The notes under the pieces are model-generated. The model was given only the letters and a program-made list of their open reading frames with translations, ran no database searches and was not told the origin of the DNA. DNA of 64,000 nt from positions 186,001-250,000 of the forward strand of contig NZ_JVMD01000023.1 of the NCBI RefSeq assembly GCF_001056295.1, read 5' to 3'. The DNA is from Corynebacterium halotolerans (GTDB lineage Bacteria > Actinomycetota > Actinomycetes > Mycobacteriales > Mycobacteriaceae). The stretch's first letter is position 1. Each line of letters begins with the position of its first letter. Made by a program: the position numbers and the translations under genes. Shown here piece by piece: positions 61,477-64,000 of this stretch.

Positions 61477-62586
61477 TCAGTAGAGGACGCGGGAGAACAG
61501 CACGTTCCAGGAATCGTGCAGATCATCCTGCCAGTAGCCCCACGAGTGCGTGCCGGCGTTGCCCAGATCCCAGTGGGCGTCGATGCCCAGGGAATCCAGC
61601 TTCGCCTTGAACACGTTGGTGCAGAAGTTCGTGCCGCCCTCGATGGCCGAACCGGTCGTGCGCTGCGCGATCAACTGCGACTCGTCGGTGACGTTCGGGT
61701 GCGCGGTGGTGTCCCACTCGCCCCACAGGCCGGTGCCGTTGGAGATGTACATCTGCTGGCCGCGCAGCTTCTCCGCGTTCACCAGCGGGTCGTTGTGCTT
61801 CCAGCGCTCGCCCGGGCGCGGGCCCCACATCTGCTCGCCGGTGACGCCCTTGCGGTCGAGCACCAGCTTGATGGCCTGCGCGCCGATCTCGTCGGAGGTC
61901 TGGGCGCAACCGGAGAACGAGCCGATGCCGTCGTACAGGTCCGGGCTGTGCTGGGCGAAGTTCAGCACCGACGTCGCCGACATGGACATGCCCACGATGC
62001 CGCGCTTGCCGTTGCCGCCGATCTTGGCCTCCAGGGACTCCGGCAGCTCCTTGGTCAGGAAGGTCTCCCAGGTCTGGGCGCCCAGCTTGGTGTTCGGGTC
62101 CGTCCAGTCGGTGTAGTACGAGAACTCGCCGGCCTGGACGATGATGACGTTGACGTCCTTGTTGGAGAAGAAGTCGATGATGTCCGTCTGGTACAGCCAC
62201 GACGCCTTGCCCTCGCCGCCGTCGGCGCCGTTGAGCACGTACAGCGTCGGGCGCGGCTTGTAGATGTCGTTACCCGTCAGGCCCTTCGGATGGATCCAGA
62301 CCAGCGGCACGCCGCGGTCCATCGACGTCGAGCCCGCCCAGACCTCCTTGACGTTGTCGTGGCCCTCGATCTGGCTGCGCCAGTGCGGGTTGACCTTCTC
62401 CAGCTTGCCGATCGCGATCGGCGCCGGGGTGACGCCCGCGGCATCGGCGATCGGGGTGGCTACGGGGTTCGGGGCCGGCGACTCGGCGGCCGGCTGGGCC
62501 AGGGTCGTCGGGGCCAGCGCAACGGGCATCAGGGCGACCATCGCGGCGGCGGTCGCGGACAAGAGGCGCGTGCGGGTGTTCTTCAT
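61477..62586 (-). CDS. Mycolyltransferase/esterase (antigen 85 family)
   Basis: A 369-residue exported enzyme that transfers mycolates to trehalose or arabinogalactan. A signal peptide (about 1-30) is followed by a Pro-rich linker and the alpha/beta-hydrolase fold. The nucleophile is Ser201 in G-M-S-M-S and the catalytic His347 is in GTHSWGYW. Cys227 and Cys322 may pair. The size and motif fit the corynebacterial Cmt proteins. GGGAG precedes ATG 62586. Its presence marks the host as a mycolate-making Corynebacterium-type organism. Confidence 0.94.
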   Translation of the reverse strand: MKNTRTRLLSATAAAMVALMPVALAPTTLAQPAAESPAPNPVATPIADAAGVTPAPIAIGKLEKVNPHWRSQIEGHDNVKEVWAGSTSMDRGVPLVWIHPKGLTGNDIYKPRPTLYVLNGADGGEGKASWLYQTDIIDFFSNKDVNVIIVQAGEFSYYTDWTDPNTKLGAQTWETFLTKELPESLEAKIGGNGKRGIVGMSMSATSVLNFAQHSPDLYDGIGSFSGCAQTSDEIGAQAIKLVLDRKGVTGEQMWGPRPGERWKHNDPLVNAEKLRGQQMYISNGTGLWGEWDTTAHPNVTDESQLIAQRTTGSAIEGGTNFCTNVFKAKLDSLGIDAHWDLGNAGTHSWGYWQDDLHDSWNVLFSRVLY

Positions 62587-62889
62587 CGTGGGCTCCCTGC
62601 GGCCGGGTTCGCGGCCAAGTCAATGCCGTGGACCGCCTGCGCGCATCCTTCGATGCCGCTGAGTCCACGCTGTGCGGCGTAAATCAATGGGGAGATTACC
62701 CCAGCGCACGCCGGTGCGAAAGCGTTGCGCCAGATGGCCGTGGCCGGTTTTGCGGCGGCTCCCCGGCCTGGGAAAGCCGGATTCCCCGCATGAACTGGTG
62801 TTACGGGAGTTAAAATTGGGACGAATGTGAACTAGGCTCATTTCCGGAAGAACCCCGCGGGGACACCCGTCCCAACCGAAAGGACCGAC
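62587..62889. other. Divergent region between mycolyltransferase and the 36-aa gene
   Basis: It carries the mycolyltransferase leader and, at its right end, a promoter for the small peptide gene (62810-62838). It is locally AT-rich near 62805-62845. No other element was recognised. Confidence 0.5.
62810..62838 (+). promoter_or_regulatory. Promoter of the 36-aa peptide gene
   Basis: TTAAAA (62810-62815), a 17-base spacer and TAGGCT (62833-62838) fit a housekeeping promoter. Transcription would start near 62845, giving a 45-base leader. Confidence 0.45.
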
Positions 62890-63000
62890 ATGCAGCCCCA
62901 TGAATCCCTTCTCGTGAAGCTCTTCGAGCTCCTCGGGGTCGGCCTCGACCAGGGTTCCGCCTCGCTCGCGGACATCCTCGTCGCCCTCGGCATCTACTGA
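62890..63000 (+). CDS. Small hydrophobic peptide (36 aa), function unknown
   Basis: ATG 62890 is preceded by AAAGGA at good distance and by its own promoter. The 36-residue product alternates Leu/Val/Ile with charged residues and ends in Tyr (starts [16 protein letters not shown]). It has no signal peptide. Corynebacterial PorA/PorH channel peptides are also 30-60 residues, leaderless and amphipathic, so a similar cell-wall role is possible but is only inferred. It lies 145 bases before lpd. It is too short for ordinary gene callers. Confidence 0.6.
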
Positions 63001-63145
63001 CCGAGGCACTGACCGAGGCGCTGGCCGGGCCACCGAGCCGCCGACGGCACCGTGCGGCGGCCGGGCCGTCGCAAAGCAAACCGCCCCGCCCCCCACGGCC
63101 GAGGCGAGGATGACTCGGGCCACGACGCCGCGTAATCTTGTTCCC

Positions 63146-64000
63146 GTGGCTGAACATTATGATCTCGTTGTCCTCGGCGCCGGCCCCGGCGGGTACGTCG
63201 CCGCCATCCGCGCCTCCCAGCTCGGCCTGAAGGTCGCCGTCGTGGAGAAGCAGTACTGGGGCGGTGTCTGCCTCAACGTGGGCTGCATCCCCTCCAAGTC
63301 GCTGTTGAAGAACGCCGAGGTGGCGCACATCTTCAACCACCAGGCGAAGACCTTCGGCATCTCGGGCGACGCCTCCTTCGACTTCGGTGCGGCGCACGAC
63401 CGCTCGCGCAAGGTGTCCGCGGGCATCGTCAAGGGCGTCCACTACCTGATGAAGAAGAACAAGATCGACGAGGTCGACGGCTGGGGCGAGTTCAAGGACG
63501 CCAACACCATCGCCATCACCGACGGCGAGGACGAGGGCAAGGAGCTCACGTTCGACAACGCCATCATCGCGACCGGCTCCGTCGTCCGCTCCCTGCCGGG
63601 CGTCGAGCTCGGCGGCAACATCGTCTCCTACGAGGAGCAGATCCTCTCCTCCGACCTGCCCGACTCGATGGTCATCGTCGGCGCCGGCGCAATCGGCATG
63701 GAGTTCGCCTACGTCCTGGCCAACTACGGCGTGGACGTCACCATCGTCGAGTTCATGGACCGCGTTCTGCCGAACGAGGACGAGGACGTCTCCAAGGTCA
63801 TCGCCAAGGAGTACAAGAAGCTCGGCGTCAAGCTGCTCACCGGCCACAAGACCACCGCCATCGAAGACAAGGGCGACTCGGTCGAGGTCAAGGTCGAGCC
63901 GAAGGACGGCGGCGACTCCGAGACCATCACCGTCGACCGCGTCATGGTCTCCATCGGCTTCGCCCCGCGCACCGAGGGCATCGGCCTGGACAAGGCCGGC
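63146..64000 (+). CDS. lpd: Dihydrolipoamide dehydrogenase, truncated by the window end
   Basis: The first 285 residues of the E3 flavoenzyme shared by pyruvate and 2-oxoglutarate dehydrogenase complexes. FAD-binding [10 protein letters not shown] (about 10-20), redox-active C-x4-C in [17 protein letters not shown], and NAD-binding [11 protein letters not shown] are seen. The rest lies beyond the window. GTG 63146 is the start: TAATCT ends seven bases before it (leaderless). A CGTCGCAAAGC motif (63067-63077) precedes it. Confidence 0.97.

Follow-up and report, generated by a model that had tools for sequence, protein, structure and literature searches.

What, if anything, is encoded by the short open reading frame (ORF) that lies between a mycoloyltransferase gene and lpd in Corynebacterium halotolerans? 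The window that we analysed is a 64,000-nt stretch of this genome, and the ORF occupies 62890..63000 on the plus strand, 36 codons from an ATG start to a TGA stop, for a predicted small helical protein. On the same strand, 148 nt 3' of the stop, lpd (dihydrolipoamide dehydrogenase) begins with GTG and runs from 63149 to 64000 and past the window end. On the other side, 303 nt away and divergent, is a mycoloyltransferase gene on the minus strand (61477..62586) that belongs to the Cmt1/MytC side of its family. An initial annotation had read the ORF as the gene of a small hydrophobic peptide with a promoter, a ribosome site and a stop before lpd. The stop is there, and a ribosome-binding-site-like GAAAGGA at 62878..62884 (plus strand, found by eye) is plausible; CGAAAGGA-type sequence precedes the ATG in relatives too. 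At about 70% G+C a 36-codon ORF alone is not improbable and longer antisense ORFs overlap it, so the case for a gene rests on conservation. A 396-aa ORF on the minus strand (62810-64000, open at the window end) overlaps both the peptide gene and lpd; this is typical of 70% G+C DNA and we did not take it as a gene.

Because short peptides search badly, we used a scan anchored on lpd followed by a profile. A search with the single window peptide was weak and reached 9 of the 242 Corynebacterium genomes at E <= 0.1. The scan covered 1 kb upstream of lpd, where matches below 5 bits are chance, and in many Corynebacterium loci it found small ORFs, 30-41 residues long, that follow one shared pattern. 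No such small ORF was seen upstream of the lpd loci returned from Dietzia, Gordonia, Nocardia, Tsukamurella and more distant organisms. A family profile built from 34 of the lpd-upstream members matched 201/242 Corynebacterium genomes (E <= 0.01), nearly always in single copy, and family lengths range from 30 to 44 aa. Two genomes hold two copies, G079 (L241, L258) and G218 (L228, L231); G218 is 7% contaminated and its second copy may be foreign.

The initial annotation held that its gene would fall if the frame were not conserved in close relatives, with synonymous and nonsynonymous changes equal. We ran this comparison on 61 disjoint pairs of 36-codon homologues and the gene survived it. There were 440 synonymous differences over 1604 sites and 391 nonsynonymous differences over 4801 sites, which gives a pS of 0.274, a pN of 0.081 and a ratio of 0.30 (0.25 after Jukes-Cantor correction), while a shift of the reading to frames +1 and +2 gave ratios of 1.01 and 2.68. 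The ratio, taken with its frame controls, indicates purifying selection on the protein. By codon position the differences number 262, 116 and 453 for positions 1, 2 and 3. In the window's own clade the protein changes fast, with distant pairs at a pN of 0.21-0.26 against a pS of 0.31-0.39. These numbers also bear on the suggestion that the promoter P2lpd of C. glutamicum may make a small RNA (PMC6338062), in which case the ORF would be incidental. The codon-position pattern, the in-frame constraint with its controls, and a ribosome-site-like sequence before 185 of the 201 copies (by a loose pattern) all count against such a transcript, and we give it hardly any weight.

The ORF is therefore a real and translated-looking small gene, as the initial annotation had it, given its presence in most of the genus and the selection on its frame. 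We scanned the 34 family members against NCBIfam and found no match at E <= 1, and against Pfam we found matches of single members only (best 0.026). PDB sequences showed no convincing kinship with the peptide family. Nor did we find a description of the ORF or the locus in open-licence PubMed Central papers, and a listing is possible in the supplement of PMC4046766, a source whose accessible part reports eight small mRNAs in C. glutamicum. We conclude that the ORF family is a real and so far unmodelled gene family.

The family consensus is MNPIEQIIVxINxxLGxxIHxGSSxSSxxxLALGLF. Among 181 distinct peptides, G16 is found in 180, H20 in 155, S23 in 159, S24 in 155 and S27 in 149. Serine is missing at column 23 in 22 of the 181, and 177 have at least one serine at columns 23-27. 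The window peptide lacks N12, H20, S24 and S27 of the family; its codons Ser23-Ala24-Ser25 (62956..62964, plus strand) include Ser23, the best candidate for O-mycoloylation. For 151 members of 36 residues the mean hydrophobic moment peaks at 100 degrees, and over residues 4-36 the family moment is 0.291 versus 0.121 (sd 0.005) in shuffles. The amphipathic pattern claimed by the initial annotation thus holds for the family and not for the window peptide by itself, where 9.7% of shuffles scored as high over residues 4-36. The conserved polar columns N12, G16, H20, S23, S27 and G34 fall at 20-100 degrees, with the polar face at 97 degrees and S24 at 140. AlphaFold2 with a 34-row alignment predicted one helix over residues 3-32 (mean pLDDT 87.2, pTM 0.39). 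We read each member as one predicted amphipathic helix; its polar face is conserved, and so is a Gly-Ser motif.

A small, hydrophobic and helical peptide could also be a membrane-active toxin or a bacteriocin-like peptide. Most membrane-active peptides are not acidic, and here the net charge was between 0 and -5 in all 181 peptides; most of the genus, moreover, carries it as a syntenic core gene in single copy. We would be surprised if it made a toxin. None of the 181 peptides has a cysteine. Lysine and arginine are both absent from 131 of them, which are invisible to trypsin-based proteomics for that reason.

We then surveyed the gene neighbourhood in 201 copies from 199 genomes, two of which have two copies; two of the 201 matching genomes were left out of these context counts (G202, which was not fetched, and G141, which failed the ORF filter). 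In the fetched stretch a mycoloyltransferase gene is divergent and adjacent in 185/201 copies, on the same strand in 0/201, and missing in 16/201. Longer stretches, which cover seven of these 16 copies with C. glutamicum handled apart, place the divergent gene further off in G047 and G230. In G076 the mycoloyltransferase gene (cmt1) is on the same strand as the peptide gene, 1.5 kb after it, and in G204, G092, G250 and G232 we found no mycoloyltransferase gene even in the longer stretches. In C. glutamicum (G100, L189, L190) the ORF is at 387418-387528 and starts 274 nt before lpd, and cmt1 is at about 362-363 kb, some 24 kb from the peptide-lpd pair; the stretch between cmt1 and the peptide would be an insertion or a rearrangement. 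From the survey we believe that the ancestral order was probably cmt1, divergent, then the peptide gene and lpd, with breaks on either side.

Downstream of the peptide gene, 156/201 copies have lpd on the same strand. This arrangement, and the printing of P2lpd as an lpd promoter (in the available part of PMC6338062), are what a leader or regulatory peptide, or an upstream ORF controlling lpd, has in its favour. The constraint on the peptide is at the level of amino acids along the chain, however, and terminator-like hairpins between the peptide gene and lpd are commoner than chance (40/147 versus 11.2 expected). In the C. glaucum/riegelii group the peptide gene adjoins the first enzyme gene, and a second mycoloyltransferase gene stands between it and lpd, so its position is not bound to lpd. 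Clades without mycolates retain lpd and lack the peptide. Taken together, we find a role as an lpd leader improbable. The initial annotation had stressed the lpd side of the locus. The C. glaucum/riegelii clade, in which the gene stays beside the mycoloyltransferase and a second such gene splits off lpd, makes the evidence point equally to the mycoloyltransferase side.

Some loci vary further. In G096 (L240; C1:209434-211875) the peptide gene is flanked by two mycoloyltransferase genes of the same strand, and one of the two stands between it and lpd. G104 has three related mycoloyltransferase genes in a row at the peptide locus. Four genomes, G007, G095, G187 and G164 (L378, L379, L380, L047), have cmt1 beside lpd with no recognisable peptide gene between them, and these are apparent losses or replacements of the peptide gene.

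The adjacent enzyme appears from its sequence to group with C. glutamicum Cmt1/MytC, a protein O-mycoloyltransferase. The best PDB matches of the window enzyme are the Cmt1 entries 8qhf and 4h18 (E ~1e-99), and it is 51% identical to C. glutamicum Cmt1 versus 43% to the next two paralogues. In a cleaned tree of 70 rows, built after 18 of the 88 rows had been dropped because rows were mislabelled or long, a branch with 99/99 support has all adjacent enzymes and Cmt1 on the same side. That side also holds two other C. glutamicum enzymes, and the window's clade lies near those two at a support of 86/52, which is weak. A single clade of the adjacent enzymes and Cmt1, together with one non-adjacent G104 copy, was not rejected (p-AU 0.20), a value that is compatible with such a clade and is no proof of it. 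A first mycoloyltransferase tree of 88 rows was noisier and was set aside; in it the adjacent enzymes were split, with 7 changes. According to the accessible part of PMC12632848, Cmt1 (Cgp_0413, MytC) is the protein O-mycoloyltransferase required for PorA, PorH and ProtX; PMC5310785, also available in part, gives MytC the same activity.

The clear promoter that the initial annotation had claimed was not recovered: a sigma-70 scan of 61500-64000 found nothing. A candidate promoter of sigma-D type, GTTAC-17 nt-CGAA, may lie at 62800..62825 on the plus strand. It has 7/9 letters of GTAAC / CGAT, a score that is common in shuffles, and five relatives keep most of the block that holds GTTACG (62800-62805). 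Across the family the signal is stronger. With a spacing of 16-18 nt, the GTAAC / CGAT motif occurs with at least 8/9 letters in 102/198 upstream regions versus 10.5 expected from dinucleotide shuffles, and on the strand of the enzyme (cmt) in 99/182 versus 9.8 expected; the sequences are related, so these counts are not independent.

In C. glutamicum, the part of PMC6338062 that is accessible describes P2lpd as a sigma-D-dependent promoter that has GTT at -10 and lies 360 nt upstream of lpd. It assigns P2lpd to lpd and reports that lpd is not sigma-D dependent in strain R, and it names only cmt1, cmt2 and rsdA as having sigma-D promoters conserved across species. By its coordinates the ORF begins 274 nt ahead of lpd, so the printed distance of 360 nt puts the P2lpd start about 86 nt before the ORF. 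We also found CTAAC-17 nt-CGTT ending 95 nt upstream of the ORF's ATG in this species. Thus the P2lpd transcript comes from the same place as our gene, and it differs in that in print, as far as that part of the paper goes, it belongs to lpd or to a possible small RNA and to no protein. We infer that the P2lpd transcript is the mRNA of the 36-codon gene, which would share the envelope-stress regulon with cmt1. Both porH and cmt1 belong to the sigma-D regulon (PMC11175481, available in part).

The peptide could instead be a partner of Cmt1, such as an activator, a chaperone or a delivery factor, and no substrate. Its gene is linked more closely to cmt1 than to any known substrate gene, and the peptide gene and cmt1 are both on the sigma-D side. 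The distance of about 24 kb from cmt1 in C. glutamicum and the four genomes with cmt1 beside lpd and no peptide argue against it. We regard a partner as unlikely, with a better chance than an lpd leader.

If the product belongs in the mycomembrane, its distribution should be compared with that of mycolates. As the mycolate marker we used Pks13 (NF040607), counted as absent when the best E was weaker than 1e-20 (our own threshold), in genomes at least 90% complete. The peptide is absent from all 12 of the near-complete genomes without Pks13, and the five of these Pks13-free genomes outside the main clade have no mycoloyltransferase within 2.6 kb before lpd. It is also absent from 28 of the 223 near-complete Pks13-positive genomes, including the C. 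jeikeium group. We mapped both labels on an lpd tree with 61 rows: being mycolate-free takes 3 changes (2-3 in bootstraps), and being mycolate-positive without the peptide takes 5 (4-5), so the 12 mycolate-free genomes amount to only 2-3 events. A Fisher value for the association treats genomes as independent and we did not use it as a probability. G224, sister to the main mycolate-free clade, keeps Pks13 and has no peptide; its absence there and in other Pks13-positive lineages means that the peptide can be lost where mycolates have not been. Two incomplete genomes, G252 (77% complete) and G209 (53%), have the peptide and no good Pks13 match, which goes against the association, and we set them aside. 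The association fits a role in the mycomembrane and is no proof of one.

For a coding gene under purifying selection that is linked to cmt1, has an amphipathic helix family-wide and carries sigma-D-type motifs upstream, the best explanation in our judgement is a small mycomembrane protein made under sigma-D, most likely a substrate of Cmt1, that packs into an oligomer. We hold this to be probable and well short of certain, and its location, mycoloylation and oligomer are the inferred parts. The peptide would be made, like the product of the divergent neighbouring gene cmt1 (mytC), in the sigma-D programme for envelope stress, and would be exported as PorA, PorH and ProtX are. Most likely, Cmt1 would then O-mycoloylate a serine of the conserved Gly-Ser motif, Ser23 in the window. 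This would anchor the 36-residue, all-helical protein, which has no signal peptide, in the corynebacterial mycomembrane, and the conserved polar face (N12, G16, H20, S23, S27, G34) may pack the helices into an oligomer. The losses in several mycolate-positive lineages speak against this explanation, as do the weak promoter and helix signals of the window itself. The initial annotation's suggestion of an undescribed small cell-wall protein is consistent with the family profile, the synteny and the regulon evidence.

How close is such a protein to the ones already known? The initial annotation had been reminded of PorA and PorH by the size of the peptide, its lack of a signal peptide and its amphipathic pattern. 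Inspection agrees that there is no signal peptide, and the 36 aa are close to the sizes of PorA and PorH (~37-57 aa, also without one); the family shares their amphipathic alpha helix. The C. glutamicum proteins (cg3008, cg3009) are likewise small, helical, acidic and serine-containing, and they are envelope proteins, with porH in the sigma-D regulon cited above. They are encoded by a gene pair at the groEL2/ppk2 locus and have 45 and 57 residues; our peptide has 36 residues and usually one gene, at a cmt1/lpd locus, and the peptide gene does not lie between groEL2 and ppk2. The initial annotation was right on this last point. Kinship is another matter, and the profile comparison shows none. 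With hhalign, 181 peptides against 29 PorA and 17 PorH sequences gave probabilities of 0.5% and 0.2%, and against ProtX 0.2%; hhalign has little power on chains this short, since even PorA against PorH reaches no more than 5.3%.

ProtX of C. glutamicum (cg2875, 38 aa) resembles the peptide in its size, its helix and its lack of a signal peptide. It is mycoloylated by MytC at the penultimate residue, Ser37, and is encoded at a different locus, whereas the window peptide has no C-terminal serine and the family is a putative substrate. ProtX is needed by phage Cog, and its function is otherwise largely unknown (PMC9671496, as far as the accessible part goes). PorA and PorH are O-mycoloylated by Cmt1 (PMC12632848). 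The available part of PMC5310785 gives no known consensus for O-mycoloylation sites; it reports that solvent extraction of C. glutamicum yields PorA, PorH and ProtX, and mentions no fourth small protein. The list of O-mycoloylated proteins in the accessible part of PMC11066868 is also without this peptide, and the C. glutamicum peptide, which has no lysine or arginine, yields no tryptic fragments.

By analogy with C. jeikeium and C. urealyticum PorA, the peptide may sit in the mycomembrane as a small protein and form a channel by itself. These PorA proteins (jk0268, 40 aa, and cur_1714, 37 aa) have nearly the same length and are single helical peptides, and the family is of similar size, all-helical and amphipathic along its whole length. 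They lie at the groEL2/ppk2 locus and have measured channel activity (PMC3792995 and PMC5944148, in the parts available). The window genome (G000), in which only three mycoloyltransferase-like genes matched, may need another channel former, because it has no match to C. glutamicum PorA and the 1.5 kb downstream of each groEL showed no small ORF of PorA/PorH type preceded by a ribosome site. Against a channel, C. glutamicum has PorA and PorH besides the peptide, C. jeikeium has no recognised family copy beside cmt and lpd, and a polar face of small residues could pack rather than line a pore. A channel formed by the peptide alone is a reasonable sub-hypothesis that we think less likely than not.

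The Cmt1 substrate that we prefer could, more speculatively, represent a class of its own among the helical mycomembrane proteins, genus-wide and third beside PorA/PorH and ProtX. We offer this tentatively: a dedicated Cmt1 substrate, lipidated in the middle of the chain at the Gly-Ser motif, that might form a homo-oligomeric pore or a scaffold tethered to the wall under envelope stress, with its mRNA read in C. glutamicum as sigma-D transcription of lpd or as a small RNA. Known small mycomembrane proteins are few. A single-copy protein of 36 residues, tied to Cmt1 by position and probably by regulation, would be a minimal substrate with which to study recognition by Cmt1. Its gene would also account for the listing of lpd, which encodes an enzyme of central metabolism, among the members of an envelope-stress regulon. 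The gene is easily missed, being short, without a match to a curated model and in most cases without lysine or arginine in its product. As a minor observation on the known channel peptides, we recovered PorA-family peptides with PorH-like upstream partners in many species (L159-L188), and they have LSS-x-G in common, close to where PorA is known to be mycoloylated.
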